In this document: positions 5,201 through 64,000 of the stretch, piece by piece
Position numbering within the stretch: the first letter of the stretch is position 1
How the letters are laid out: each line of letters opens with the position of its first letter
Assembly (NCBI RefSeq): GCF_020382885.2
Contig: NC_058508.1
Span: 7,618,055 to 7,682,054 of the forward strand
Direction: 5' to 3'
Length of the DNA stretch: 64,000 bases
DNA from: Scatophagus argus
Taxonomy: Eukaryota; Chordata; Actinopteri; Scatophagidae
Notes under the pieces: model-generated
Told to the model about the DNA's origin: nothing
The model's database searches: none
The model's input: the letters and a program-made list of their open reading frames with translations, nothing else
Translations under genes and position numbers: made by a program

Positions 5201-7024
5201 AAGATAAGATGAACTTTATTGATCCCGCAGTGGGGAAATTCACCTGTTGTGGCAGCTCACAAGAACACAAGAAGAGTGCAAAAAGTGTGCATAAACAGTT
5301 ACAAAAAATATAGAGGTGAAATAAATTAACAATTTACAAGGTAAGTAAAAATAGTACACTATAAAGCTATATACAAGTCCTCATAAGGGAAGAAAGAGGA
5401 CTAGACCATAGAATTATACAGTCTAACAGCAGCGGGAATGAAAGACCTGCGGTAGCTCCTTCCTACACTGAGGGTGTAGCAGTCTGCCGCTGAAGGAACT
5501 GCTCAGAGCCTCCACTGTCTGGTGCAGAGGGTGAGAGGTGTTGTCCATGATGGATGTCAGCTTGGCCAACATCCTCCTCTCACCCACCTGCTCCACGGAG
5601 TCCAGTGGGCAGCCCAGGACAGAGCTGGCCCTCCTGACCAGCTTATTTAGTCTCTTCCTGTCCCGGTCCGTGCTGCCCGGTCCCCAACAGACCACAGCAT
5701 ACTGAATAGCAGAGGCTACCACAGAGTCATAAAAAGTCCTTAGAAGGGGCCTGCACACTCCAAAGGACCTCAGTCTCCTCAGAAGGTGGAGGCGACTTTG
5801 GCCCTTCTTGTACAGGGCATCGGTGTTATGTGACCAGTCCAGTTTATGGTTGAGGTGGACACCCAGTTACTTGAAACTGTCCACAATCTCAATGTCCAAG
5901 CCCTGGATGTTCACTGGTGTATGTGGTAATGACCTTCTCCGAAAGTCAATCACCATCTCCTTTGTTTTACTGGTGTTTAAGCACAGGTGGTTGCGCTCAC
6001 ACCAGTCCACAAAGTCCACGATGACTGACCTGTACTCCATCTCATTCCCCTCAGACACACAGCCAACAATGGCTGAGTCGTCAGAGAACTTCTGGAGGTG
6101 ACATCTGCTGGTGTTGTAGGTGAAGTCCGAGGTGTAGAGGGTGAAGAGGAAAGGTGAGAGTACTGTTCCCTGGGGGGCCCCCGTGCTGCAGACCACCACC
6201 TCAGACACACAGTTACGCAGTCTCACATACTGTGGCCTGTTGGTGAGGTAATCGATGATCCAAGCAGCCAAATGTCCGTCCACACCTGCTCTCTCCAGCT
6301 TCTCTCTCAGCAGCACCGGCTGAATTGTGTTGAATGCGCTAGAGAAATCAAAAAACATGATTCTCACAGCGCTCCCAGCACTCTCCAGGTGAGTCAGCGC
6401 CCGGTGCAGCAGGTAGATGACAGCATCATCCACCCCAATGTTTGGCCTGTAGGCAAACTGCAGCGTGTCCATCGCTGTACTCGCCACAGAGCGAAGGTGA
6501 CTGAGGATGAGCCTCTCCATGGTCTTCATCAGGTGAGAGGTCAAGGCGACAGGCCTGTAGTGGTTTGGCTCCTTGGGGTGTGCAGTCTTAGGAACTGGAA
6601 CCACACAGGAGGTCTTCCACAGGACGGGGACCCTCTCCAGACTAAGGCTCAGGTTGAAGATGTACGAGACCACCTCACAGAGCTGGTCAGCACAGTCCCT
6701 AAGCAGTCTGGGGCTGATCCCGTCTGGTCCTGCAGCTTTCCTGCACCTCAGCTGCCTCAGTTCTCTCCTCACCTGGTCCGATGTTAAGGAGAGGGGTGAG
6801 AGAGGGGGGTGGGGAGGGGAAAGGGGTGGACAAAAGGGGATGGTTGGGCTGATGGTGGAAGGGGGGGCTGGTGTGAAGTGGTGTGAAGACAGGGGGGTGA
6901 TGGGAGGTGAAGTAGAGGACAGTGATGGTGTGGTGATATATGCTTTTCTAAATGGGCACTGGTCACTGTTGATTTCTACAGCTAATAGATGAGGTTTTTT
7001 TTCAAACCACACCAGACGGTTCAA
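5201..7024 (-). mobile_element. 5'-truncated non-LTR retrotransposon with reverse transcriptase
   Basis: Read on the minus strand, an open frame from 7024 holds a reverse transcriptase of the jockey/CR1/L2/Rex group. Segments seen are RKAAGPDGISPRLL, HYRPVALTSHLMKTMERL, FDFSSAFNTIQPVLL, GAPQGTVLSPFLFTLY and the catalytic box FSDD, where FADD is usual. A single in-frame TAA at 5867-5869 interrupts it. The same frame then runs on to 5423 with a typical C-terminal part (FYDSVVASAIQYAVVCWG). The 3'UTR contains the L2-like segment AACTTTATTGATCCC as read on the plus strand near 5210, and a short GATAAGAT-type tail. No endonuclease domain is present, so the copy is 5'-truncated and dead. Confidence 0.9.
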
Positions 7025-7279
7025 TTTGACAATAATGGGCAGCCCTGAGGGGGATTTAGAGTAACTGCTTTTGTAAGGAAGATAATCTTCTCATGTGCAG
7101 GCAGAGACATGCATACAGCAATGTGCAGTATTTCTCATAACGCTCATATCAACTGCATACTGCATATAAGAAACCCATTTTGATTTGTACTAGTACTATT
7201 ATTGTACTGTCACTGTTTTGTGTGATAAAATATAACAGGCTAATTGTTATCAAAAAGTAATATTAAAGTCAGAAACATG

Positions 7280-8435: not shown

Positions 8436-9566
8436 ATGGAGTTCGATCTAGAGAAGTTTAAAGAAGCTCCTACAGCAGAGCAGCTTTCTTATTGCAGTAA
8501 GGCACAGCTCATGTCCATTGCGGAGCATTACTGCATTGAAACTGCATCAGCTTCTCTTAAGAAGGATGAGCTCAGAGCTACAGTTGTCACTGCTCTTGCT
8601 AAACAGGGAGTGCTTTCGAGTGAGTCTGAAGATTCAGACTTAAGTCACCCTTTTGAGGTTTCTACTAGTAAGACAGAGGCTGTGCAGTTGCAAACGCAGT
8701 CTGTACGTTTACATGAGTTGGAGTTACAGTTCAAAATTAAACAACTAGAAATTGAGGCAAAAGATAGAGAAGAGGGGAGGAAAATGGAAATGGAGAGGTT
8801 GCGGCTGGTACATGAGGAGAAAATGAAGGAACTGGAGCTGAGGTCAAGTGAGACGCAGTCTCAGAGTGCCAGTTCTCATGCGTCTACTGCTTCTCCTCGG
8901 TTTGATGTTGGGAGGAACATTAGTTTAGTTCCTCATTTTTCTGAAAAAGAAGTGGAAAAATACTTTTCCCATTTTGAACGTGTAGCCACCACATTTGAAT
9001 GGCCTAAAGATGTATGGACGCTGTTGCTGCAGTGTGTTTTATCAGGTAAAGCACAGGAGGTCTATTCTTCGTTAACACTCACCCAAAGCGCTGATTATGA
9101 AATTGTTAAAGCAGCCATTTTGCGGGCTTACGAGCTGGTCCCAGAGGCCTATAGGCAGCGATTTAGAGGTTTTCGTAAGATTGACAAGCAGACTTTTGTA
9201 GAATTTGCCAGAGAGAAGGAAATTCTGTTCGATAGGTGGTGCACATCTCAAAAAGCTGAAACTAGAGAGCAACTTCGCGAGTTGGTACTCCTGGAAGAAT
9301 TTAAAAACTGTGTTCCTGAGGCAGTTGCAACCTATTTGAGTGAGCAGCGTGTGTCCAAAGTTGGGGACGCCGCTGTACTTGCTGACGAATATGTTCTGGC
9401 TCACAAAGGGGTCTTTAATGATAAACATCTTGAGGCTAAGAACCGTGCTTTTACTCGTCCTCTTCGCTTTAAGGCTAGCAGCAATGGTCCTGGTTCTTCT
9501 GTTTTTGCTTCAAGGCCTGCTAGTTCTGGCTCTGGAAACTCTGAGAGGATTTGTTTTTTTTTGTAA
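8436..9566 (+). CDS. LTR-element Gag, ends in a shifted zinc knuckle
   Basis: The chosen start is the ATG at 8436 (MEFDLEKFKEAPTAEQLSYC). The open frame extends 23 codons further up, but those residues do not look like Gag. A charged coiled-coil-like segment (residues about 90-145, rich in E, K, R and L) is followed by a capsid-like region with HFERVATTFEWPKDVWTLLL and AYELVPEAYRQRFR, as in other retrotransposon Gag proteins. The frame ends at 9564-9566 within a zinc-knuckle motif, just after a run of nine T residues (9554-9562). The rest of the knuckle continues in the next frame, where it joins pol. Either the run has gained a base or frameshifting is used here. Confidence 0.8.
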   Translation: MEFDLEKFKEAPTAEQLSYCSKAQLMSIAEHYCIETASASLKKDELRATVVTALAKQGVLSSESEDSDLSHPFEVSTSKTEAVQLQTQSVRLHELELQFKIKQLEIEAKDREEGRKMEMERLRLVHEEKMKELELRSSETQSQSASSHASTASPRFDVGRNISLVPHFSEKEVEKYFSHFERVATTFEWPKDVWTLLLQCVLSGKAQEVYSSLTLTQSADYEIVKAAILRAYELVPEAYRQRFRGFRKIDKQTFVEFAREKEILFDRWCTSQKAETREQLRELVLLEEFKNCVPEAVATYLSEQRVSKVGDAAVLADEYVLAHKGVFNDKHLEAKNRAFTRPLRFKASSNGPGSSVFASRPASSGSGNSERICFFL

Positions 9567-12230
9567 AAAGCCTGGTCATGTCATAGCTGATTGTCATGCT
9601 CTCAGTAAAAAGCAGAAAGCTGCTAAGCCAGTGGCATTGTTGGCTTCAGTGTCACGTCTGCCTGGTGGAGCTAATTGTCTCAGTCACTTCGCTGAAGACA
9701 GGCCTGGGGTGGGAAAAGGTCTGAGTAAGTCCAGTGAGAACAGCACTGAGTCTGATCTTTTTGCACCTTTCCGTATGGAGGGGTTGGTGGCCATCTCTGA
9801 GTCAGATAAGTTTGTCCCCGTTCGTATTCTAAGGGACACAGCAGCCGCTCAGTCTTTGTTGGTGGAGGGAGTTTTGCCCCTCTCTGAAGAAACTTCTACT
9901 GGTGAAAATGCTTTGGTGCGGGGGTGTGGTCTGACTTGGATTGAAGCCCCATTGCATGTTGTGTATTTACAGTCTGGGTTGGTTACAGGCTCTGTGGCAG
10001 TGGCTATTTGCCCTGAACTTCCTGTGGAAGGAGTGGACATGATTCTGAGGAATGATTTGGCTGGTGGGGAGGTGTTCCCTACACCCATTGTTGTGAACAA
10101 CCCAGTTGGCTCTAGGTCTGTTAACCAAGGTGATCAGGCATCTCAGATGACAAAAGTCTTTCCTGCTTGTGTGGTAACTCGCGCTCAGTCACGTAAGGTT
10201 GAAGATGTGGTAGATCTTTCAGAAATGTTTATTGCTCCATGCAAAGAAACTGTCGAGAATGTGCCTGCTGGTCCCTCTGCTGCTTCTGAGTTTACAGTAG
10301 CTAAGCAGTCTAATGATTCCACTGTATCTGAGACTATTGAGGTTACATTGTCCAGTCCTGTCACCTTGTCTGATGAGTCTGAGGCTCAGTTAAAGGTTGG
10401 CAGGGAGCAGTTGGTAGAGGCTCAGAAGGCCGATCCTTCCTTGGCTAAGTGTGTAGCAGCAGCATTGCCTAAAGATGAGATGGGTGCCTCTCAAGTGGCT
10501 TACTACTGGGAGGATGGTATCCTCATGCGCAAGTGGGCTCCTTCAGCTGATGACAGTGAGTGTAATGATGTACATCAGATTGTTGTCCCTGCTGGTTACC
10601 GGGCACAGATATTGAGCTTAGCTCATGATAATGTTTTGTCTGGTCATCTAGGGATAGCTAAAACTTACTATCGCATATTAAAGCATTTCTTCTGGCCTGG
10701 TTTGAAACGTGATGTTTCCCAATATTGCCACTCATGTCATACATGTCAGTTGGTTGGGAAACCAAACCAAGTGATCCCACAGGCTCCACTTCATCCTATA
10801 CCTGTGATGGGGGAGCCCTTTGAGAGACTCCTCATAGATTGTGTTGGCCCGTTACCCAAGTCAAAATCTGGTCACCAGTTTCTCTTGACCTTAATGTGTG
10901 CTGCAACTCGATACCCTGAGGCAATCCCACTGCGTTCTCTTAAAGCTAAGGTGGTAGTAAAAGAACTGATGAAATTCTGTACCACTTTTGGGTTGCCAAA
11001 GGTAATTCAAACAGACCAGGGTACTAACTTTATGTTGAAAGTGTTTTCTCAGGTGTTGGAAGAGTTGGCTGTGAAACATCAGGTCTCCAGTGCCTACCAC
11101 CCAGAGAGCCAGGGGGCACTAGAGCGCTTCCACCAGACCCTGAAGACAATGTTGCGTGCTTACTGTCTTGAAACTGGTAAGGAATGGGATGAAGGTATAC
11201 CATTCCTGCTTTTTGCTGTTCGAGAGACAGTTCAGGAGTCACTGGGTTTCAGTCCTGCAGAATTGGTATTTGGCCACACAGTTCGTGGACCGTTGAAGTT
11301 GTTGCGTGAGCAGCTGATGGGGGTTACTTCTCCTGTCCAAAACGTGCTGGACTATGTCAGTTCTTTCAGAGAACGTCTTCATCATGCCTGTGAGGTAGCG
11401 AAAGAATCACTGTCTGGCTCCCAATCTAAAATGAAGGCTCACTTTGATAAGAGTGCTGTTAGACGCAGTTTTAAACCTGAAGATCCTGTGCTGGTTTTTC
11501 TTCCTATTCCTGGTTCAGTGCTTCAGGCCAAGTTTACTGGCCCTTATGTAATTGAAAAGAAACTGAGTGAAACAGATTATGTTATCCGTACTCCTGATAG
11601 GAGACGAAAAACTCGTGTATGTCATGTGAACATGCTCAAGCCCTACTGTGCCCGGCTCAGTGAACCTACCCATTCCCCTCCAGCTAAGGTGTTGCCTGTA
11701 GCTTTAACAGCAGTACTGCCATGTTATTCTCCTCAGGATGATGATCTAGTGATGCAAGATGATCCTGTTCTGTGTGCTCGGCTGTCAAACTCCCAAGTGT
11801 TGAGTGATTTGGAGAATTACTTGTGTCATCTTTCTGGGACAGATAAGAGTGACATTCTCAAGTTAATTGAAAGTAATCACATGCTGTTCTCAGATGTACC
11901 GACCCAAACCACAGTGTTACAGCATGACATTGACGTTGGTGACTGCCCTCCTATTAAGCAGCATGCCTACCGTGTGAATCCCACCAAAAGAGCTCAAATG
12001 CAAAAAGAGGTTGAGTACTTGCAACAGCATGACCTGGCTGTTCCCAGCTTCAGTGCCTGGAGCTCTCCATGTTTATTAGTGCCAAAGTCTGATGGAACAT
12101 CACGCTTTTGTACTGATTTCCGGAAACCTAATGCTGTAACTAAACCAGACTCTTTTCCTCTTCCTCGCATAGAAGATTGCATCGATAGAGTTGGAGCTGC
12201 TTGCTACGTCACCAAGCTGGACCTGTACCT
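9556..12230 (+). CDS. LTR-element Pol: protease - integrase - partial reverse transcriptase
   Basis: The frame opens on the second half of the CCHC zinc knuckle (FFCKKPGHVIADC). A protease follows with ILRDTAAAQSLL, where DTGA is usual at the active site, and a later segment, DMILRNDLAGG. The integrase has its HHCC zinc module at about 10620-10750 and the catalytic triad Asp (10837), Asp (11014, TDQGTNF) and Glu (11104, YHPESQGALERF). A chromo-like tail follows (KFTGPYVIEKKLSETDYVIR). Reverse transcriptase comes after it: SSPCLLVPKSDG, FCTDFRKPNAVT, FPLPRIEDCIDRV. It stops at TKLDLY and runs straight into LTR sequence. The YxDD box and RNase H are absent. Confidence 0.88.
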
Positions 12231-12450
12231 CAGTTTCCTGAGAGAAGATGCAGGGCACCTGCATCAAGCTGTGGGTGTGGCCTATATAAGTGGATCTTTT
12301 CTCCACCCTCTCTCTCTCTCATCTCCCTGGCACAGGATCCCAGCCTTTGTTTGTGTTAACCATCTTTTGTTGTAAATAAATATGCTTTTCTTGCTTCAGA
12401 TCTAGTATCATTTTACCTTAATGTGTTGTGACTTTGAGCCGGTCATAACA
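12231..12450 (+). repeat. 3' LTR, 5'-truncated
   Basis: Begins CAGTTTCCTGAG, equal to position 62 of the 5' LTR, so its first 61 bases are missing. TATA box and AATAAA are kept. It differs from the 5' LTR by two base changes and an extra ATCTCCC next to the CT run. Confidence 0.9.
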
Positions 12451-15479: not shown

Positions 15480-17706
15480 ATGGGAACGTCCAGGATGTTT
15501 CGCGTCTTCGTCGTCCTTGGCTCAGCCTTCATGATCCTCCTGATCATCATCTACTGGGATGATGTTGGCGCCTCCCACCTGTATTTGCACACTCCTGTCT
15601 CACCAGGCCCCAGAATCCCACACCACCATCCTCCCCAGCAGCGGCCTCAAACCTCCCAAACCCCGTCCTTCCTGTCCGACATCGATGCTTTTGTTAACCA
15701 GTTCTTAGAGCCTGGAACTGGCGAGCCGACAGACACCGCCCCTGCTGACACAAGTAACCAATCAGAGAAAGCAGAGGAACGGTATATACCACGGCGGGAG
15801 TGGAAGATTCACCTGACTCCAGTGGCAGCAGAGCTCCGTGAGAGACAGGTTAATATCTGAAACTATTATACGTATCTCTGCTAGTGGTAATGAATGTTTA
15901 ATTGTCACAGATGGCATCTGACATGTCATAGCAGGAAAATGGCTCCTTTCCCTTCATGCCAGTTCCCAGCTCCATGCTGACTCACTGGGCATAGACCAGG
16001 GTCATTGTTAGTATCATGTAGAGGACCTTAGAGATCGTAGGATTTAGGGGGATCTATTGGCAGAAATATATTCAGAATTATGTTTTCATTAGCATGCAAT
16101 CACTTGAAAATTAGAATTGTTGTGTCTTTGTTGCCTTAGAAAGACTCTTCATGTCTATAGTGTGAGCGCTTCCTCTTCCATGGAGTCTGCCATGTTACAC
16201 TGCCATGTTTCTACACAAGCCCAGGATGGACAATGGGCTTTTGGTGGTTTTAGTGGCTTCTCCTGTACACTTGAAAGGGGATGGTGAAGCGAGGGGTGTT
16301 CAGTTGGTTGCAGTCTGCACCTTAACTGCTAGGTGCTGGTGATGAATCTGATCAGTCATACTGAACCTTGAATACATTTGTTCTGGATGCACATGAATTC
16401 ATTAGTCATTTTAATTAATAATCGTAAATCTGTCTGTGTGTAATCAGGAGCAGCGGCGAAAGTTACTGAAGGAGATGTGTGCTAATGACAGCTTGGTGTT
16501 TCCCGGCAAAAACCGTTCGTTTGAAGACATCCCCAACAAGGAGCTGGATCACCTCATTGTGGACGACAGGCATGGCATTATCTACTGCTATGTTCCCAAG
16601 GTACACCACCAACGTCCACAAATTTTGCTTGTTTGAAAAGTCTGATTTAATTAGTTTAGTAGATTAGTTCGGGTGCAAGTCTGCAAGGAGAACCTGTTTA
16701 AACCTGTTAAACTTCCTAACCCCACCCACCCACCCAGGTAGCGTGCTCTAACTGGAAGCGCATCATGATTGTGCTCAGTGAAAGCCTGCTGATTGATGGT
16801 GTTCCTGTGAGAGACCCAATGGCAATCGACACACACCTGGTCCACAACAACAGCCTGCACTTTACTTTCAGCAAGTTCTGGAAACGTTATGGCAAGTTTT
16901 CAAAGCACCTCATGAAGGTCTGTTCCCATATTATACTATATTATACACTACATGGTGATGGTAATGTCAATGATATCAGTGTTTTTCCCTGTTTTTTGAA
17001 CCGCTCCAGAATCTTCTCTCCTGCTGCTGTCGTCAAAATTATGTTTCTCTAAGCTTCTGACTTTTCTTTCATCCCTTTAAGCATGTTAATAGTAGTTTTT
17101 ATTAGATATGTGATAATGACAGCTATGTGTTAATACAGATTTAATTTATTTTTGAAGGTCAAGCTGAAGAAGTATACCAAGTTTCTTTTTGTACGTGACC
17201 CCTTTGTGCGCCTCATCTCCGCTTACCGGAATAAATTTGAGCTGCCCAATGAAAACTTCTATCGGCGCTTTGCACAGGTCATGCTGCGCCGCTATGCCAA
17301 CCAGCCAACACCTCCTAAATCTGTGGACGAGGCGTTTAGCATGGGTGTCCATCCCTCTTTCTCCCACTTTATCCAGTATCTCCTGGATCCTCAAACAGAG
17401 AAGGAGATGCCCTTTAATGAGCACTGGCGGCAGATGTACCGGCTTTGCCATCCATGCCAGATTCAGTATGACTTTGTGGGCCACCTGGAGACAGCAGAGG
17501 AGGATGGCGAGCACCTACTCCGCCTTCTGCGGGTGGACAACGTGGTGGAGTTCCCCTTCCCCAAAAAGAACCTCACAGCCAGCAGCTGGGAGGCTGATTG
17601 GTTCAGTGCAATCCCTGTCAAGGTGCGGAGAGAACTCTACAAGCTGTACGAACCTGACTTCAGTCTCTTTGGCTACCAAAGACCGGACTCGATCCTGAAT
17701 GATTGA
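15480..17706 (+). CDS. chst12: chst12, chondroitin 4-O-sulfotransferase 2
   Basis: A Golgi type II membrane enzyme that transfers sulfate from PAPS to the C4 hydroxyl of GalNAc in chondroitin and dermatan chains. Four exons join in phase 0: 15480-15848, 16448-16600, 16738-16917 and 17158-17706, giving 416 residues (human CHST12 has 414). The start has a good context (CACCATGG). Residues about 6-25 are a signal-anchor (FVVLGSAFMILLIIIYW), followed by a Pro-rich stem. The PAPS 5'-phosphosulfate loop spans the exon 2/3 junction, PK|VACSNWKR, with Ser where many relatives have Thr. The 3'-phosphate site is FVRDPFVRLISAYRNKF. The C-terminal region ends in LYEPDFSLFGYQRPDS. N-glycosylation sequons are seen (NRS, NNS, NLT). 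CHST11 and CHST13 are the near relatives; the N-terminus and tail fit CHST12. Confidence 0.93.
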
Positions 17707-22090: not shown

Positions 22091-23380
22091 CTATGCATTG
22101 ATGAGGTATCCATTGAAAGTGATGTAGACATCTACATCATCACTGTAAATTGCATTCTCCCTCTCCCTCTTGTACAGGCGGATCCACACCTCTTCGCTCG
22201 GCTCCAGCTGCAGCATCACACTCTGACTCTGCATGATAGAGCGGTCGCTGGGCTGGGCGTACACAATGGCCTGCTCTGTGTTGTTCTTCATGATGTGTAG
22301 ATACGTCTCTTTGAAGTTCCACGTGTGAATGTTGACATTGAAGAAGTAGGTTCCCGGGTTGTGGCAGATGAACTTCCCCTTGAACATGTCGAAGTGTCCC
22401 TCCAGGTTGACAAACACTGTGTCAAACAGAAGAGTCTGGTAGGCCTCAAGGCTGTGGAGGGATTTTCGACGGCCGACCGAGAAGGCGGAGTGCTGGACTT
22501 TACAGGGGTCTCCTGGAAGACCAGCCTCACCCTTACTGCCTTTTGAGCCCATGGGGCCTCTGGAGCCTGGAGGGCCTTCGTGTCCCGCTTTACCAGGCGT
22601 TCCTCTGTCGCCACGTTCTCCTTTGTCACCTGCACAGAATGGTATTATAATCATCTCATCGGGATTAAAGAAATATATGTATTCTTAAAGAGGACAGAAA
22701 CTAAGCAACTGGTTCTGTGCAGTTTTGGGGTTACTGTCAGATATTTAGGTATAAAGGTTGGAGCTTTCTTTCAACTATATAAACTATCAATAAAGTCAAA
22801 GGTACTGGACCTGGATTTGCCTTTGGCTCAGCTGTCCGGTTATCTCGATGGTTTCATAAGCATGCCTAGAAAAAGAGCTGAGTCCATTTTGTTTGACAAC
22901 AAAGGACCACTTCCTATTTTTTTTTTTCTATTCCATAGAGTGAACTCCAGAGATTTAAAAGTAAATATGCAATTTTTGGCATTATTAAGAAAACCTGCAA
23001 TATGCCATGAAATCTTCTAAAAGCTCTGTCAATCAGCACGTGAAGGCAAAGATTGCCCATATATGGCCAATATTGCATCAACCAATACAAAAAGTGGTCT
23101 GAAGCTGAAAAGAGTAGGGTTATGGTGTAAGGTGTGAGTGTCTGGGGGTCACCTATTATGGCCCATTCTGTACTGTAGATATAGTACCTTTGAGGATGGT
23201 CATGTTGATATAGGTGTGGACCTCCGGCACATAGCTGAACCCTCCGTTGGGAGGTTGGGCTCCGCTGCCCTCTGCAGGATCCAGGTGGTCACAGCAGCGT
23301 CTGCACGGTAAAGGAGGAGGAGGAGGAGGAACCAGGGCCACCAGGGAGGTCAGGGACAGAAGGAGGAAGACACCCAACAT
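22091..23380 (-). CDS. c1qtnf6: c1qtnf6-like, secreted collagen/C1q protein (CTRP6)
   Basis: Two coding exons on the minus strand, 23380-23188 and 22629-22091, join in phase 1 and give 243 residues. Residues 1-17 are a signal peptide ([17 protein letters not shown]), followed by a Pro run and a Cys-rich patch (CRRCC). About 14 Gly-X-Y triplets follow, starting [10 protein letters not shown]; the first Gly codon is split by the intron. The C1q globular head fills the last 140 residues and has [37 protein letters not shown] and [12 protein letters not shown]1q/TNF proteins trimerise through this head and act as secreted signalling or complement-modulating factors. The head is closest to the CTRP6/CTRP8/CTRP1 group. 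Linkage to il2rb, as in human 22q12.3, favours CTRP6. The protein is somewhat shorter than human CTRP6. Confidence 0.85.
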
Positions 23381-52324: not shown

Positions 52325-53631
52325 TCACTGCCTTTCCTCTTTCATTCCCTCTCCCTCTGAGATGATATGATCTGGAGATGCCCTTTTAAACCACTCAGAC
52401 CAGGAGCCATCATAAACACACACCCCAGGGTGCCCAAGCAGATGAGCAGCCAGAACAACATGACATGCAGTCACACCAGACCCACAGGTAGCCCAGATTG
52501 GTTTCTCCAGGTCGACCCCTGCCTCTCTGAATAGCTTGGACAGGGCCTCAGGTCCCAGTTCCTTTCCAGAGGCATCCATGAAAGAAGTGAATGGCATGTT
52601 GATGGCACCGGGGTAATGTCCCGGCAGCGTGTCTGTGAGGGTGAGACAGAGGAGTGAGATACAGGCAAATGAAACAATAATTAATGATTCACTTACTAGA
52701 TTTATTGTTTTCTTCTTCCTTCAGCCGCATCTCCTGGTCTTCACCAGCTAAACCTGAGCACTCTCTGCTGGTGAAGGCCATGAGATGTGGCAGAGAGCCA
52801 TGGAAGAAATCTAGTAAGTAGACCTTGAGCACATTTTTTTTAAAACTACTTAGCTTACCAATACTAACAACACACTTGACATTGCACTAGACAATGTAAC
52901 TACACGGCAGCAAATACAACTACACGTTTTAAACAACTTTACACAATAAAACTATCAGTAATTGGGATGTTCATCGCACTGCTACTGACCTCTGTTCACT
53001 GCAAACATGCTTTTTAATTTAAAACCTTGTCATCCTGCTCACCGTCTCTGGGTTCCGGCTCTGTCCCCCTGAAGCGTCCTGCAGACCTGGCGTCCACAGT
53101 CTGGACCTGCTTGGTCCTGATGTTCTCCAGCACGTCTTCGTAGCTCTTGACCCACGACTCATTCACGGTCGCCTTGAACTGTCGATACTCCGGCTTCGAG
53201 TACTCAGATGTTACCGGATACTCGTTAGCAAGCCAGTTCTTCATGCCACCGTCCAGCACAGACACCGAACTGTGTCCGAACAGCCGGAACATCCACCACA
53301 CCCGGGGCGAGCTGAACGACCCGAAGTCGTTGGTGTCGTAAACAATTACATGCGTGTCGTTCCCGATGCCCAGGTCTCCTACATACTGTGAGAACTGGCT
53401 GGGAGTTGGCAGCATGTGGTCCAAGGCAGAGTTTTTGTCACAGCACTCGTCTATGTCAAAAAACGAGGAGCCCGGTATGTGCTTCTGCATGAACTCAGCT
53501 CTCGGGTCCCGTTTGGTTTTCGGCAGGTACCACGAAGTGTCAAGAATGCGAAGCTTTGGCCCGACGAGACTATTTCTGACAGCATCCGCCAGCCACTGAG
53601 CTGACACCAGCGCCCGGGTCTGTGCCGCCAT
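52325..53631 (-). CDS. mpst: mpst-like sulfurtransferase, copy A
   Basis: 3-mercaptopyruvate sulfurtransferase moves sulfur from mercaptopyruvate to an active-site cysteine and then to thioredoxin or other acceptors; it contributes to H2S production and cysteine breakdown. Two exons on the minus strand, 53631-53043 and 52632-52325, join in phase 1 and give 298 residues (human MPST has 297). Two rhodanese domains are present. The N-terminal inactive one includes LDTSWYLPKTKRDPRAEF and RVWWMFRLFGHSSVSVLDGG. The catalytic one includes RFRGTEPEPRD and the loop CGSGVTACH. CGSGVT marks MPST; thiosulfate sulfurtransferase (TST) has a basic CRKGVT loop. MPST and TST neighbour each other and IL2RB in human, which fits this location. 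Confidence 0.92.
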
Positions 53632-53859
53632 GACGAGGCTCTGGTGGTGAGATACAAGCTGCGAGCGCTAGAGGGAAACGTTCAGGGTGGAGAGTTGAAC
53701 GCAGGAGCAGCGTTTGTGCGTAAGGGAGGATGCACACAGGCTCTCAGTGTGCTTTAGATGCACTTTGGTTTCAAATTGGAAAAAAAATATCATGAATTTA
53801 AAGAAAACACATATAGACTCATTATACACAGCAATATTAAGGACCCACAAGTGCAATAT

Positions 53860-54137
53860 TAAGAACTACTTTCTGAACTACCTCACACTTGCGCACACTT
53901 GCACATGCATACTTAGGCTGCTATATGTTAAAACCGGCTTCTTATTTAAATGCTTAGCTTATTTAAATGTCTAGTTTTATAATTTTATATTCTATTTAGC
54001 TTATATTCTATTACCTCGTACTCTTATATTTTTATAGTCTACTTACTGCTCCCGGGACCTGAGTCCTAATTTCGTACCATAAACATGTGAATGTGAGCTG
54101 GTATGACAATAAAGTTCCTTGAATCCTTGAATCCTAT
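53860..54137 (+). mobile_element. Truncated LINE 3' end with TTGAATCC tail
   Basis: The AT-rich stretch ends GACAATAAAGTTCCTTGAATCCTTGAATCC, an AATAAA-containing 3' end followed by a short tandem tail. This is typical of a 5'-truncated fish non-LTR element. No coding part is present. It lies between the two mpst genes. Confidence 0.5.
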
Positions 54138-54722
54138 AACAGATTTATTTAATCATCACCATTATCTACAGTCCTTCAAAGGCAGGCACTAGATAATAAA
54201 AGAATGCTTTTACTATTCACAAATTAGCTGGAATTCAGATCTGACATGAGCTGAAAAACAAAATATGGTATTATTCTCATGTAATGGTGTCAAGGGAGGT
54301 CCAGAGAAACAAGAACATGAAACAGAAAAAAAAAAAGAATATAGCAGCTTCTTCCGCTTATATGCTGATGATAATTCAGCACTAAGTTTTGTCAGCAATT
54401 AAGGTCTCCTGAAATTACTTCAGGGCAACATGTTTTGACATAAAACAAAATTCTTTAAAGCCAACAAAAATACATTTTTAGGAGTTCAGCCTCCATACCT
54501 CCTTTTTATGCCATCGTCAAACATATAAAGCTTATGTGTTAAATCCACATAAAAATCCTCTACCTCTACCATACTTCCACTGACAAAGATTTAAGGCTTA
54601 AAACTCATTTCTGAGGTCAAAATATCTCTGATTATGCATCTCTTATGATGAATCAATGATGTGATTAATGAGTCAGACACAGTAAGTGATGTGTTTAATG
54701 CTGATTTGTAAATTCATCTCAG

Positions 54723-55969
54723 TCATGTCTTTGGGCTCTGGACCTCGGAGACGACATGCTCTGGTGGAGCCCTGGTGACCCACTCATACCAGGATCCGTC
54801 ATACACAGCCGCTCCAGGGGCGCCGCACAGATGGGCGGCCAGCACCATGTGACAGGCGGTCACGCCCGAGCCACAGGATCCACAGAGGGGCTTATCCAGG
54901 TCCACCTGCGACTCTTCAAAGAACTTCTTCAGCTGCTCTGTCGAGAGCATCATGCCATCATCATCAACAAACTCGAAGAAAGGCATGCATTTGGAGCCAG
55001 GGATGTGACCCGAGCGGACACCTGTGGGACAATGAGTAGTTTACCTCTTTGCACAGTCATATATAAGCCTGTTCTCTCATTGTGTCTTACTTTAAGTAGT
55101 AGAGAAAAAAGGACGTGCTTGTCTAACATTAAAATTTGTCTGTAGTATATTTACGGAGGACTATTTTGGTGTTAAAGAAAAAACACGGGGCTTTCTTCAG
55201 AAGTCAATCACTTTATGAGCCAACACCTTTTGATCTGAGCCTTTCCCCCCTACATTTGAACCTACACAAGATGGCATTAGAATGAGGCTATTTTCACATA
55301 AGAAGAAATAAGTTCCCCAAAAAAGTTTTAAAGATAATGAATTTGAAAGTTTTACATTTGAATCTAGTTGGATTTACCCTCTCTTGGTTCTGGTTCTCTT
55401 CCGCGGAACCTCGCATGGGGCCTCGCATCAACCACCTGAAACTCCTGAGTTGCAATGTTGTTTGTAATGTCCTCAAAGGACCTCACCCAGGAGGGGTGGC
55501 TCACAGTGGCGGTGAAGCTGGCTGAATCAGGTTTGGTGTACGCCCCTGTAACTGGATGGCCCTCTCTGACCCAGTTCCTAAACCCACCGTTCAGCACCGA
55601 CACTTGAGGATGCCCAAAAAACCGGAACATCCACCAAACCCTGGTGCAAGAAAATGCTCCAAAGTCACTGGCGTCGTAAACAACCACATGGCTGTCATTT
55701 CCAACACCCAGACTCCCAACATAATCGGCGAAAAACTTCTCAGTGGGGAGCATGTGATCAAACTTTGAAGTCCTGTCCGAGCACTCGTCGATGTCGAAAA
55801 ACGACGCTCCTGGGATGTGAGACTGTGCAAATTCCTTCTTGGCGTCTCTTTTCATCATAGGCAGGTACCAGGACGTATCCAGGACCCGCAAACGCGGTCC
55901 GACCAGATTGCGTTTGACAAGGTTTGCAAGCCATTTTGCAGAGACAAGAGCTTGAGTTTGCGCTGCCAT
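54723..55969 (-). CDS. mpst: mpst-like sulfurtransferase, copy B
   Basis: Same enzyme family, orientation and gene structure as copy A, whose coding exons start about 1.1 kb downstream. Exons are 55969-55378 and 55021-54723, joining in phase 1 at the equivalent place (after EPEPRE), and give 296 residues. Recognisable parts are MAAQTQALVSAKWLANLV, LRVLDTSWYLPMMKRDAKKE, RVWWMFRFFGHPQVSVLNGG and RFRGREPEPRE. The catalytic loop is CGSGVTACH, so this copy is also MPST-type. The residues before the loop (LCGSCGSGVT) carry an extra Cys compared with copy A (IWATCGSGVT). The shared intron and similarity along the whole length point to tandem duplication. It could be the positional counterpart of TST with an MPST-type loop. 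Confidence 0.9.
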
Positions 55970-57362
55970 GTTTAGAAGTGCAGCTATTTGTTCTCAATTT
56001 ATCTGCCTTCTCTGGTTTACTAATCGACACGTTACCTCCACCAACTGGCATGGAGTGAAATTATGGCAACAGCTTCGACATGGGATCAAGCCACTGCGGT
56101 CAAGCCAGCCTCCACAATGTTTTCAAGTGCTTTATATACTAAACACTATGGTATCAAGCCCCAGTCTGCTCTTCAGATTACAGGTTTCCCTTCCTGTCCA
56201 GTGAGAACTGCTACTGCACAATGACCACTTTTGCTTTTAATACTCATATTTTTGCTTATAAGGATGTTTCAACTTCTGTTCTACTGCACTACATGTCATA
56301 GGGAAAGTAACTATATTTGGCAGCTTTAAAGGTTCAGTATACAGAATTTGTCCAGTCTTTTAAACGTACAATAAGTTGAAATAGTAAGCCAGGTTTGTGA
56401 CTCATGGTCAAGGGGCTGACGAGCGTAACACAGGTTTCTTTGTGTATTAATGAGGTCAACATGAATGGAATGCATTAAGACTTTTCTTCCCTGGACTTCC
56501 CTTGACTGTAATGACCGTTTGCTTTCTTTAATAGTAGGTTACTTTTTTTTCCCCATAATGAGCCTTACAGTGGACAAAGGTGAGAATCCAGATGAGCAGA
56601 TGTGATCAGCTCAACTGTTTTAAAATGCTTGAAGTGCCCAATCTGAATGTCTGACTGGTATAATTAGGTGTATTTCCTTTTCATTTTTACTATTTAATTG
56701 AGATATTTTCAAATTAATCATTTATTTGTATTTTACACAAAATTTTAGTTCTTCAAAATGCTAATTCCCATATTTTCAGATATACTGTTCAAAGATTACT
56801 GTTCACATGCTGGGAATGTTTTAAATTGATTACAATATCTCATGTCTAATTAAAAATTTATTGGACATTAGGTCTGGCATCTGAGAAGGAGTCATCAGAG
56901 AGAACTGTTGTCATTCCCATACAAATTTGTTCTCATGATGTGGAGCTGGTGACTCCAATTTCCTCTAACACACACTCAGACTTATTGTGTATGACTTGAA
57001 TTTCACTTCTGGTAACTCTTTCCTTAACTCATTTCCATTCATCTAGAAAATAGGTTGAAAAGAAAATAACTAAAAGGCTAATTCAATTCAATTCAATTCA
57101 ATTCAATTCAAGACTTCTGTCTCTCTCCTTCTGTCTACACTGTTTTATCAGTTTGTAAATATATGTATAGTGAGCTGGATTTCAGGAACTGATTAAAAAA
57201 CAAACTTGGGTTCATGATTGGGATACTGATGAAATAGTGACCTGTGACACCTGATGATAACATGTACTAAGGATATAAAGTAAAAGGGCATGAAAAATAC
57301 GGAGCCTTAAAAGTCAAAGCTGTGTAGTCCTACTACAGCTGTAGGAATCATTTATGGGTTTA

Positions 57363-60137: not shown

Positions 60138-63100
60138 ATGGCCCTTCTTAACTACCCTGTTCCACAGTTGGATGTTACCTTGCAAGAAGTGAGCCGTGTC
60201 CTGCAGCTCACTTTGAGTCCTGACCTTTACTCTGAGTTCAAAAGTACAATAGAACAGCAGAGGGAGCTCCTTAAAGAAGGCCATCAAAAATTAGCAACCA
60301 CTGCTGCTGGCCAAGAGAACTGGGTGACGGAGCAGTTCAAGAGAGGTCTGCTGTCTTGTGCTGACCCCCTGCCTACCTCCACAGCCCTACCTGTTGTTCT
60401 TCTTCCTTCCCAAGCAAAGCGATGTACCCAGCTGGGGAGAGCAGCTGCTCTGCTCTGGGCAGCAGCTAAGCTACACAGTGAGCCCTTGTTACTGGAGGGC
60501 AATGTGCCAATGGAGCGCACACAGCAGTCTGAGGTATTCGCTGCCAGTCGAATTCCTGGCAGGTGCCAAGATGAGATTAAGGTGAGATTACAGACAGAGA
60601 TTTCTAGAACTAAAATGAAAAGTTAGAGGTTTTCAATTTTCAAAAGGTCAGACCTATACTGGTTTTAATCTGCAGCTTTGTTATCTCCAGCTCTATCCTG
60701 ATAGCCTACACGCCATCATTGCCTGTGTAGGAGGAGTGTTCCCTGTTGACATACTGTGGCGTCCCAGCACTGGTGGGCCAGTTTCTGCGCGATCTTTCAT
60801 TGACATCTACAACCAGCTGGCTCAGGTGATGGACCAACCCAGAGCAGGAAAACAGAATGATCCCTCTATCATTTGCAGCTTCTCAGCTCTGGAGCGTAAA
60901 GCCTGGGCAACCACCAGAGAAGAAATCCTGAGTCAAGGAGGGGATGCAGCAGCATCACTGGTGCTGATGGAGAGTGCTGTACTTACACTCTGTCTGGATG
61001 ACTGCGATGCACCGTCTCAACTGGCTGATATCCTCAATGCAGTTAGGCTGGGAGGAGGAGGAGACTGTCCACGTCTGAGATACTATGACAAGGTACTAGA
61101 CAGAATCTTGATGAGGATTTTAAGCTAAGCCAAGATTCCTTACCTCTTTCACACACATGTGTGTCTGTCATTCTATTGAACTAACAAATAATGGCATAAA
61201 AATGCACAAAATGTGAAAAGTTTTTCTGCTGAAAGAGAAACAAATAGTTTTATTGCAATTGAAATGATGACTGAAACCCAAGCAAATATTTGTTGTTTCT
61301 ATTTTTGACAGGTGGTGAACCTGGTGGTCTTCAAGGACAGCACAGCCGGGATGGTGTTTGAACACAGTGCTGTGGATGGGATGGTGGCTGGGCTTGTGAC
61401 TGAGCGTGTGTACAATTTGTCAGAAACCGCTGATTTAAACCTAGTCCATACTGACACAGAAAGTATGAATGGGTCTGTCAAAGTAAACAGTGTTAATTCT
61501 GTTTTCCCAACTTCCTTAACATTCCCCTTGCAGGGCATAAATACACCCAAACCAAGCTCTAACTTAAAAGCAATACACCCAGTTCTCACATTTGATGTGT
61601 CCTCATATCCTGATGTGTTTTCTACTCTCAGAGGACACAGGGGCCTGTATGATGCTTGGATCAACTTTTCTTTACAGCTTTCCCTGAGGCAGACTCTTGG
61701 GGAATCTGCTGCCAGTCACATCCTGGTCACACCTACCCATATGCGTCACTACAAACATGGCCGGTGTGATCCTACATACTCACTCACATTGCATTCTCGA
61801 AAGTTATTAGGTGCTTTGGCATCCTGCGTTGGTCCAGATAACAGTATCCAATACACTAAAGACCATCTACACCTGTTTCATGTTGCATTTTTGGAGCATA
61901 AGAGTCTTATAAGAAACACCAAAAATGGCCAAGGTGTTGGTCCCCATATAGCCGCCCTGCGTCGATCATTGCCATCTGACAACCCATTAAAGAAGTACCT
62001 GGACCCTTTCGGATGTCCATCTGTGTACCTAACAGGCACGGATCTGATGGAGGGTGTGGAGTGTGGAGTTGGAAATGTTTATGCCCAAGATCAGCTTGCT
62101 GTAACCTATCTTGGGAAGAGAGACAAGGTTCGCATTGTGCTAAATGGGAAAGGGAGCTTTGCTCTGGCACTGGAGAAACTTCAAGACAGCCTGAAGAAAA
62201 ACCTGAAGTTAGTTATGCTTCTAGCTGTACGATATGCGATTGCACACCAAATGGGAGCTCTGGAGAGTCTACTGAAACAGGGTCAAACTGACAAAACAAA
62301 TGTAGAGACATATCACTGTTCAGAGAGCCAAGACAATGGCAAAAATGCTGCTGACTCCACCTCTGGCATGAGTCCAGACTACACTCTTGTCATCCATGGT
62401 GGCGCAGGAGAGGACATGATGCTGAACACTGACGTGATTGGTGTCATTGAGTTTGCTCTACAGACGGCCTTAACCCTTGGATCCCAAGAGCTTCAACAAG
62501 GTGGCAGGAGTCTGGACTCAGTTCAGAGGTCAGTGGAAGCTTTGGAGGACTGTTTCCTGTTCAATGCAGGTAAAGGCTCGGTATTTAACAAAGATGGCAA
62601 AAATGAAATGGAAGCAACCATTGTAGATGGCAGTGCATCAAGATCAGGGTCTGTTGCTTGTGTGCAAAGTGTGAAGAATCCAATTAAAGCAGCCAGATGT
62701 GTCATGGAGAAAAGCTCACATTCACTCATTGTGGGAGATGGAGCTGAGGAGTTTTTGCATGGGTTGGAGGAGAAAGAGAAGCCTGTTGGACCTGAGTATT
62801 TCTACACTGATATACGTTACAGAGAGTTAACTGCAAAACTTAGTGGTAGAAATACCTCAAAAAACAATCACCCTCAAACAGTTGGAGCTGTGGCCCTGGA
62901 TCGCTGGAATAGATTGGCTGCTGCAACCTCCACAGGAGGGTTAGTTGGAAAGCTGAAAGGGCGAGTTGGAGATACAGCAGTAGTAGGAGCAGGAATATAT
63001 GCTGATGACAAGGTAGCTATTACATGCTCTGGAGATGGAGATGTATTTCTGAGGCACACAGTTGCACAGAAAATAGCCAGTCTGTACCATTACAAAGGCT

Positions 63101-64000
63101 ATAGCCTTAGGCAGGCATGTAGAGAAGTGATGGCTGAAAATCTGAATGGGATCTGTGCAGGAATCATTGCTGTGGACATTAAAGGTGATGCCATCATTGA
63201 AACAAATTCTGGTGTGATCTTTGTTGCCTCAATGATAAATGGCATTCCACGGGCAGAAGTCCTGAGGCCCGTGAAGAGTTTCTCTAATGTAATCTGGGAA
63301 ACGGATGAGCTGGTTGCTTACCTTAATCCCAAGCCCTGGATCCCTGGGTCAGCCATTCTGACCAGAAAAGCTCTCAATGGGGCAAGCAGCATCTTCCAGT
63401 TGGCTACACCTGATTTTGTGGCAATGCTACAAGGAGCAAGGGCTGTGTCAAGCTTGCTATGTGAGCGATTGGGGGTGCAGCGCTGTGCTTTGGTTTTCAA
63501 TCCGACATCTGGACAGGCAGCACAAATCAGGCTTCTCCCACTTCATGGCCTAGAGCCAAAATGGCAGCCCCATCTTGCCCATGAAGAAGAATTCCACACT
63601 CATGATCCAGGCTATTGCACCTCAAAAAGTGGCCCTTGCTGGGATGATGAAGCACTGGCCCAGGTTCAAGCCAGGATTAGAAGTGAACTGCCAACACCAA
63701 ACGCACCCTCTTGTTTTGACTTTTTTGGAGATGCTTCCAATGATGACCTGTTCAGTCGCATTGTGCGTGGACAGCAACAACAGTGGAGAGTGTGGGAAGA
63801 CAGTGAGCATGTGGCCTTCCTCACACCATATCCAAACTCTCCTGGACTAACTGTTGTGGTGCCACGCAAGCCACTTTCCAGTGATATCTTCAAACTTGAA
63901 GAAGCTGATTACAAAGCTCTGATCATAGCCACTTATAAAGTTGCCCAACTACTTAAAGAGGGAATGAGAGCTCGAGGTATTGCACTGATCTTTGAGGGCT
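60138..64000 (+). CDS. Carnitine acyltransferase-like / asparaginase / HIT-like fusion protein, partial 3'
   Basis: Exons 60138-60581, 60691-61092 and 61312 to the window end join in phase 0. They give 1178 residues, still open at the edge. The start ATG has a good context (AGGATGG) and follows an acceptor at 60118. Residues 1 to about 600 follow the choline/carnitine acyltransferase fold: YPVPQLDVTLQEV near the start, catalytic FEHSAVDG with His300, then HYKHGRCD and DQLAVTYLG. Residues about 640-930 follow the Ntn asparaginase/isoaspartyl peptidase fold: VIHGGAG (His644), NAGKGSVF, nucleophile TVGAVALD with Thr805, ATSTGG, GRVGDT and CSGDGDVF. Residues about 940-1040 and 1107 to the end look like HIT domains. 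Several key residues differ from active relatives (see findings). I do not know a characterised protein of this layout. Substrate and cellular place are unknown. Confidence 0.85.

Follow-up and report, generated by a model that had tools for sequence, protein, structure and literature searches.

A five-domain fusion enzyme gene of the fish Scatophagus argus, apparently shared with a sulphur bacterium by horizontal transfer

PMC7157772 describes MccH as a histidine-triad phosphoramidase that cleaves aspartamide-adenylate, and of which stand-alone resistance genes also exist. Its clade is marked there by Lys for the third His of the triad, Glu five residues ahead of the triad and Phe at the place of HinT His39; MccH requires both H101 and K103, and an F44H variant is still active. 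PMC4392301 presents AgnA as a truncated asparaginyl-tRNA synthetase (AsnRS) homologue without the anticodon domain, and PMC3532385 presents Leishmania AsnA as a eukaryotic ligase that is an AsnRS paralogue and came from bacteria. Here, a gene of Scatophagus argus is described in which domains resembling these enzymes are fused in one reading frame. It lies at the end of a 64,000-nucleotide stretch, the window (RefSeq assembly GCF_020382885.2, contig NC_058508.1, positions 7,618,055 to 7,682,054; G000:C16:7618055-7682054), of a 570.7-Mb genome in 48 contigs. The same fused enzyme appears to be shared with a sulphur bacterium by horizontal transfer, the bacterial form being its nearest kin among the collections searched.

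The fusion gene occupies window positions 60138-65217 on the plus strand and has three coding exons encoding a protein of 1583 aa. From the N- to the C-terminus it contains a carnitine-acyltransferase-like (CAT-like) domain, an N-terminal-nucleophile (Ntn) asparaginase, two histidine-triad domains (HIT1 and HIT2) and an AsnRS-like ligase, named AsnL, giving five domains of four enzyme types. Coding exon 1 (60138..60581, aa 1-148), delimited by its open reading frame (ORF), Pfam and sequence, holds the start of the CAT-like domain; coding exon 2 (60691..61092, aa 149-282) continues that domain, as indicated by Pfam and by gap-free joins to the bacterial homologue L032. The in-window part of coding exon 3 is 61312..64000 (aa 283-1178), and the remainder to the stop corresponds to L009:1056-2272. 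A likely 3' splice site just upstream of coding exon 1 suggests a 5' untranslated exon before it. The three exons join in frame to 1178 aa free of stops, with GT..AG introns, and this part matches Pfam Carn_acyltransf (aa 7-504, E 5e-54), Asparaginase_2 (aa 640-923, E 3e-78) and HIT (aa 1103-1174, E 8e-6), in agreement with the first-pass annotation of the window, which had reported three cleanly spliced enzyme folds in one frame. Exon 3 stays in frame beyond the window end for an extra ~1.2 kb, up to a stop at position 65217 read on contig C16; its ORF of 1302 codons has a chance of ~1e-30 given the local composition, and AATAAA signals lie 3' of the stop. The last ~350 aa form a class II tRNA-synthetase core (Pfam tRNA-synt_2, E 9e-29) wholly outside the window. 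The three parts first proposed are real, and the layout was incomplete, as the fourth enzyme and the HIT2 triad lie beyond the window; the idea of a multifunctional fused enzyme is supported and extended by one enzyme type.

Introns, vertebrate neighbours on both sides and a paralogue elsewhere establish the fusion as a genuine vertebrate gene. Two rhodanese-type genes and an IL2RB-like exon (score under the Pfam cut-off) lie 5' of it, and a MID51-like gene followed by a bZIP stretch (ATF4 by eye) lies 3'. The splice joins DEIK/LYPDS and RYYDK/VVNLVVF sit in gap-free stretches of the alignment with intronless L032, and both are therefore supported without recourse to RNA. That the fusion is an assembly join or contamination artefact, for which no sign was seen, has a negligible probability in view of the introns, the flanking vertebrate genes, the paralogue on contig C2, the same domain order in another organism and the saturated silent sites. 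A join error within 61312-64000, raised as a possibility by the first-pass annotation, is likewise unlikely, because the window is free of N, C16 spans 22.96-Mb and the domain order in L032 is identical.

L032 is a 6460-bp contig from a metagenome-assembled genome (MAG) of Candidatus Parabeggiatoa, a sulphur bacterium. Its fusion ORF (L032:1-4500) is intronless, with the 5' end cut by the contig edge, and holds the same five domains in the same order, colinear with the fish protein at identities of 31% (CAT), 46% (asparaginase), 37% (HIT-HIT) and 61% (AsnL). A scan of species genomes (84,980 species), made with short peptide patterns on contigs of at least 3 kb and hence open to misses, gave 188 AsnL relatives; among the best 80 of these, L032 is far ahead with 59% identity against at most 47% for the others. 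The CAT-like domain matched L032 alone among 89 loci (L023-L111, comprising the best 80 of 188 and nine plasmid loci), so that no other full fusion was found there. A viral source was considered and rejected: viral contigs gave no relative, either by single protein or by alignment, and CAT exon 1 was absent from the phages searched. CAT was also absent from the plasmids searched. The notion of L032 as a stray eukaryotic contig is ruled out by its 1960-bp flank, which, counting itself, is matched 110 times in the MAG and recurs on 39 further contigs, with 40 of 1177 candidates scored.

The fusion ORF was probably acquired in Parabeggiatoa from another source, as its GC content is 53.6% against 37.8-43.1% in six other stretches of the MAG, and its third-position GC is 0.54, whereas the 24 stop-to-stop ORFs of 250 aa or more in those six stretches span 0.33-0.485. 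CAT is mainly a eukaryotic family, and the fusion may have been built in a eukaryote from a bacterial AsnL and then taken up by Parabeggiatoa, a history to which we give substantial weight, though less than even. The alien composition of the ORF and the finding of L032 as the only full fusion among the loci tested agree with such a history, as does the scarcity of CAT in bacteria. Overlapping samples of Pseudomonadota, the class and the order had it in 3 of 398, 6 of 369 and 2 of 42 genomes, respectively; it was seen in 0/301 and 0/377 genomes of two other phyla, where the 14 control genomes were silent, so that these zeros carry no positive control. Against it, the closest relatives of AsnL and the Ntn domain in the collections searched are bacterial, and HIT proteins of bacteria were matched by HIT2. 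Within the order of Parabeggiatoa, one genome carries a divergent stand-alone CAT-like gene (L144:4413-5912), situated 3' of an apparent gene for adenylation of the nonribosomal peptide synthetase type (by eye).

The age of the shared enzyme has been assessed from silent sites and trees. AsnL of the fish and of L032 shows 64% amino acid identity and only 17% identity at 99 fourfold sites; the transfer is thus not recent, and on this comparison AsnL is old and under purifying selection. In the AsnL tree (93 rows, quick method, SH-aLRT support only, three AsnS as outgroup), fish and L032 unite with a starred support of 100 on a long stem of 0.97, adjoining L036 and L038 (91), and fall within a starred 39-row set whose other 38 rows are bacterial, grouped with the paralogues and not with AsnS. 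In the CAT tree (11 rows) the same pair has a starred support of 99/100, apart from an own-genome row taken for CPT2; the deeper order is weak and two rows are long or partial. The HIT tree (8 rows) gives a HIT1 trio with 97/94 (starred) and a HIT2 trio with 81/82 (unstarred), and the two fish copies pair within each trio with 98/98 for HIT1 and 95/96 for HIT2, both starred. This pairing by domain implies that the HIT tandem duplication is older than the split between fish and bacterium, and that one transfer accounts for both fish copies. The fusion itself very likely predates that split as well.

The second fish copy is situated on C2, in a block that holds a rhodanese gene 55-63% identical to the C16 rhodaneses, an ATF4-like gene with 69% identity over 65 aa, and an intact gene of two exons whose 310 aa comprise the two HIT domains only. 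This HIT-only gene (L121, C2:24661576-24662962) has its exons at C2:24662962-24662699 and 24662244-24661576 on the minus strand, and the whole fusion, when searched against C2:24653000-24672999, matched it in HIT pieces only. We infer that the C16 and C2 blocks are ohnologues of the teleost genome duplication. As the second locus in the duplicated block retains two HIT domains only, the fusion predates the block duplication. The HIT parts of C16 and C2 share 59% amino acid identity and 31% identity at 96 fourfold sites, which indicates that the copies are old and under purifying selection. A trimmed fusion is a likelier origin of the C2 gene than an ancestral HIT-HIT gene, since the complete domain order is present in L032 and the tree groups HIT1 with HIT1 and HIT2 with HIT2. 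The HIT-only gene has a phase-0 intron inside the HIT1 coding part, which the C16 fusion does not have.

HIT1 (63283..63675, plus strand) is dead in all three copies (C16, C2 and L032), as seen in the alignment and the HIT tree, and reads AxQxR at the triad position in C16. HIT2, whose in-window part is 63721..64000 on the plus strand, is MccH-like; its motif E-x5-Y-x-H-x-K (E1177-GFEID-Y1183, H1185, K1187) extends across the end of the window. The Lys at the third position (K1187), the Glu five residues before the triad (E1177) and the middle His (H1185) of the MccH signature are all present. By these marks HIT2 would work like MccH, and full membership of the MccH clade is not assigned to it.

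The CAT-like domain (60156..61977, plus strand) keeps the His of the HxxxDG-like box in FEHSAVDG (H300, codon 61363), and the Ntn domain (62383..63234, plus strand, aa 640-923) keeps TVGAVALD, with the nucleophile-type Thr805 (codon 62878), together with GRVGD; both motifs had been pointed out at first pass, apart from GRVGD, and both domains match their family profiles. The residues FDRH of CROT and VDRH of L117 are aligned to VGPH in the fish and FGPH in L032, a change of Arg to Pro (Pro493 in the fish). This Arg we take to be the one that binds the carnitine carboxylate, R518 of CrAT, and what is presumably the STS motif of carnitine acyltransferases reads TGT in the fish and TGV in L032 (alignment by eye, with rows L118 and fish C6 disregarded as wrong-strand frames). 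With both lost, the acceptor of the CAT-like domain is probably other than carnitine. The best PDB match of the Ntn domain is the L-asparaginase precursor 2zak (6.6e-58), and 4o0c is matched at 3.5e-40; we take these to be E. coli IaaA and a human ASRGL1-type enzyme, respectively. The CTGTGE-like stretch reads CSGDGD in the fish and is retained as CTGTGE in L032. Other asparaginase genes of the fish genome, matched exon by exon, lie on C10 and C12.

Catalytic key residues are thus retained in four of the five domains, the only clearly decayed one being HIT1. A scaffold without catalysis, built from decayed enzymes, had been proposed as one reading of the gene and is in keeping with the dead HIT1 and with the loss of the carnitine Arg and STS-type motif from the CAT-like domain. 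However, the Ntn Thr, the His, Lys and Glu of HIT2, the AsnL motifs and the CAT His are retained in both fish and bacterium, and for the protein as a whole a scaffold is very improbable.

AsnL carries the class II motif sequences FRGED..HLNQF and GWGMGTER. When it is aligned with eight bacterial rows (37-47% identity), 65 columns are invariant, the motif 2 and 3 residues included. Its core is preceded by HIT2, and no anticodon-binding (OB) domain was found by Pfam. A tblastn search of plasmids with HIT-AsnL gave 66 records, of which 30 were listed; among the matches listed, AgnA-type rows are 32-48% identical, the agrocin 84 synthetase AgnA itself 37%, and annotated asnS rows only 23-27% identical to AsnL. 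A canonical fish AsnRS as the origin of AsnL was considered and rejected, as an exon-by-exon search of the fish genome with the AsnL query gave no hits beyond the gene itself and the HIT piece on C2, a result that falls short of proof. On a Pantoea agglomerans plasmid (L024:11515-13110) an AsnL match lies within a gene annotated as a GNAT N-acetyltransferase, apparently an independent acyltransferase-AsnL fusion.

The neighbourhoods of bacterial AsnL genes have been surveyed in 79 loci (L033-L111, the kept loci minus L032), over 10 kb per side or to the contig end, by tblastn at 1e-6. An S66/MccF-type carboxypeptidase is present in 64 of them, with a median gap of 2.1 kb to AsnL, and a class I S-adenosylmethionine (SAM) methyltransferase in 58; among plasmid AsnL loci an S66, LD-carboxypeptidase or MccF-like gene is annotated in 6 of 9. 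S66 (MccF) is an immunity enzyme of nucleotide antibiotics, and so is an MccH-type HIT protein. From this gene content we infer that AsnL clusters, agrocin 84 apart, may make aminoacyl- or peptidyl-nucleotide antibiotics, and the frequency of S66 hints at many clusters of aminoacyl-nucleotide type in several phyla. Genes that handle acyl groups lie in the sister loci L036 and L038. L036 has genes for a SAM methyltransferase, a LuxD-like protein, LuxC, LuxE and synthetase-like proteins, with S66 upstream; L038 has LuxE, two tRNA-synt_2b genes and a HIT gene of HxHxK type; and L064, from a Legionella MAG, has YcaO, AsnL, GNAT, ThiF, an aminotransferase, asparaginase, LuxD-like, LuxC and LuxE genes. 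In L102 only 12 bp separate the AsnL and asparaginase genes. The neighbours in L038, L064 and L102 indicate that some pairs of the fused domains also occur as adjacent genes. The asparaginases of L064 and L102 and the HIT of L038 were first detected with fish domains. An ordinary asparaginase of an E. coli plasmid was dismissed as a cluster lead, as it adjoins aspartase and C4-dicarboxylate transporter genes and no cluster.

The combination of a ligase, an adenylate hydrolase, an aspartyl-amide hydrolase and an acyl transfer step has aspartyl/asparaginyl-adenylate chemistry as its common theme, and the bacterial relatives point to such chemistry of the microcin C/agrocin kind more than to the acylated or isoaspartyl-modified substrates suggested at first pass. 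The reading we favour, with confidence about evenly balanced by doubt, is a transferred synthetase that would make an acylated product of aspartyl/asparaginyl type and carry an adenylate hydrolase of its own as built-in protection, both reaction and product being proposed from sequence. AsnL would activate aspartate, asparagine or a related acid as the adenylate and couple it to an amine, and the CAT-like domain would acylate the product instead of carnitine; the acyl transfer step is represented by Lux-type genes near the closest relatives and by the CAT-like domain in the fusion. The Ntn domain may trim or recycle an aspartyl amide, and HIT2 may destroy free or off-path aminoacyl-adenylate or phosphoramidate, thereby shielding the AspRS and AsnRS of the cell. 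The HIT-only copy on C2 would be a stand-alone version of this protection. A stronger proposal, that a vertebrate makes an acylated aspartyl/asparaginyl-nucleotide (a Trojan-horse inhibitor of aminoacyl-tRNA synthetases in kind) with a single-polypeptide, self-immune synthetase, and has kept the second copy after duplication as a stand-alone immunity protein, is doubtful at present.

Detoxification and Asp/Asn cycling are the main functional rivals to the synthetase reading. As a detoxifier, the protein would act on aspartamide-adenylate-type toxins of gut or environmental bacteria: HIT2 would cleave the P-N bond and the Ntn domain the amide so released, and the toxin would be bound or modified by AsnL and the CAT-like domain. 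MccH, a characterised HIT with the same Lys and Glu marks, performs this cleavage and also occurs as a stand-alone resistance gene, according to PMC7157772; a HIT-only copy is retained in the fish and hydrolases make up two of the four live domains. Yet AsnL has kept motifs 2 and 3 of a ligase and falls among ligase paralogues, and an intact ATP-using ligase would be superfluous to detoxification; we consider this reading unlikely. In an Asp/Asn cycle, AsnL would be an ammonia-dependent asparagine synthetase and the Ntn domain its matching asparaginase, with an attached acyltransferase and some regulation. The best NCBIfam model for AsnL is indeed asparagine synthetase A (PRK06462, E 6e-58), and the 12-bp spacing in L102 also speaks for this reading. 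However, the AsnL score is under the equivalog cut-off, the closest unfused kin (L036 and L038) adjoin LuxE, methyltransferase and synthetase-like genes and not amino-acid operons, and making and breaking asparagine in one chain would be futile; such a cycle is therefore improbable.

Several observations also weigh against the synthetase reading. The AsnL score of 196.5 bits is below the equivalog cut-off of 322 of the NCBIfam asparagine synthetase A model, and AgnA (L030) falls outside the 39-row set, on a flagged branch of 1.81. The first triad His is Tyr in all three fusion-family HIT2 copies, and at the Phe position of MccH (HinT His39, placed by alignment to 3p0t) HIT2 has Phe in L032 and the C2 copy but Leu in the C16 copy. 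Operon evidence for the complete domain set is thin, as LuxE is near AsnL in 3 of the 79 loci, LuxC and asparaginase in 2 each, HIT in 1 and CAT in 0. The LuxC, LuxE and HIT queries and one of the two asparaginase queries were themselves derived from L036, L038 or L064, as were one of four S66 and one of four methyltransferase queries. As a control, 19 stretches (146 kb) gave S66 in 0 and the methyltransferase in 1; this set is small, partly overlapping and unmatched.

Elsewhere in the window, genes of ordinary vertebrate type are seen, namely the two tandem rhodanese genes (53017-55993, minus strand), a sulfotransferase gene (17134-17703, plus strand) and a C1q/collagen protein gene (22094-22684, minus strand). 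ORFs for reverse transcriptase and retrotransposon integrase lie at 5870-7090 (minus strand) and 9340-12372 (plus strand).

Bacterial ligases of antibiotic-type clusters are unexpected on vertebrate chromosomes. If its domains are a guide to what the protein does, the fish would form or break down adenylate-type metabolites by a pathway that is not known from animals, with the same machine in a sulphur bacterium. The HIT-only copy offers a natural test of which function selection keeps, and the retained domains make direct assays feasible. No description of the fusion architecture or of its transfer was found in the open-access literature, searched by titles and starts of abstracts, most subscription papers lying outside it.

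Compared with known systems, HIT2 shares with MccH the Glu, the Lys in third place and the catalytic middle His; unlike MccH as presented in PMC7157772, it has Tyr for the first triad His, a dead HIT ahead of it and a ligase fused behind. AsnL resembles AgnA of pAgK84 and the proteins annotated as 'asparagine synthetase A' or 'amino acid--tRNA ligase-related' in being an AsnRS core without the anticodon domain, but these are annotated as separate genes, and none was found joined to CAT, asparaginase or HIT, except in L032. The Ntn unit resembles the isoaspartyl peptidases IaaA and ASRGL1 over the whole domain and in its Thr nucleophile, whereas in the fish it is an internal domain of a fusion. 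Likeness of the CAT-like domain to CROT, CrAT, ChAT and CPT2 lies in the family-level match and the His of the HxxxDG-like box; in contrast to them, it has Pro for the carnitine-carboxylate Arg and an altered STS-type motif, and the Pfam Carn_acyltransf profile is matched to position 495 of 574 only, with the last part unmatched. The Parabeggiatoa fusion differs from the fish gene in being bacterial, in having no introns and in having its start cut off by the contig. Leishmania AsnA, as presented in PMC3532385, provides the precedent of a bacterial-type AsnRS-paralogue ligase in a eukaryote, from which it follows that such a ligase is able to move into one; unlike the fish fusion, it is a single-domain, unfused enzyme of E. 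coli AsnA type, 58% identical to E. coli AsnA.

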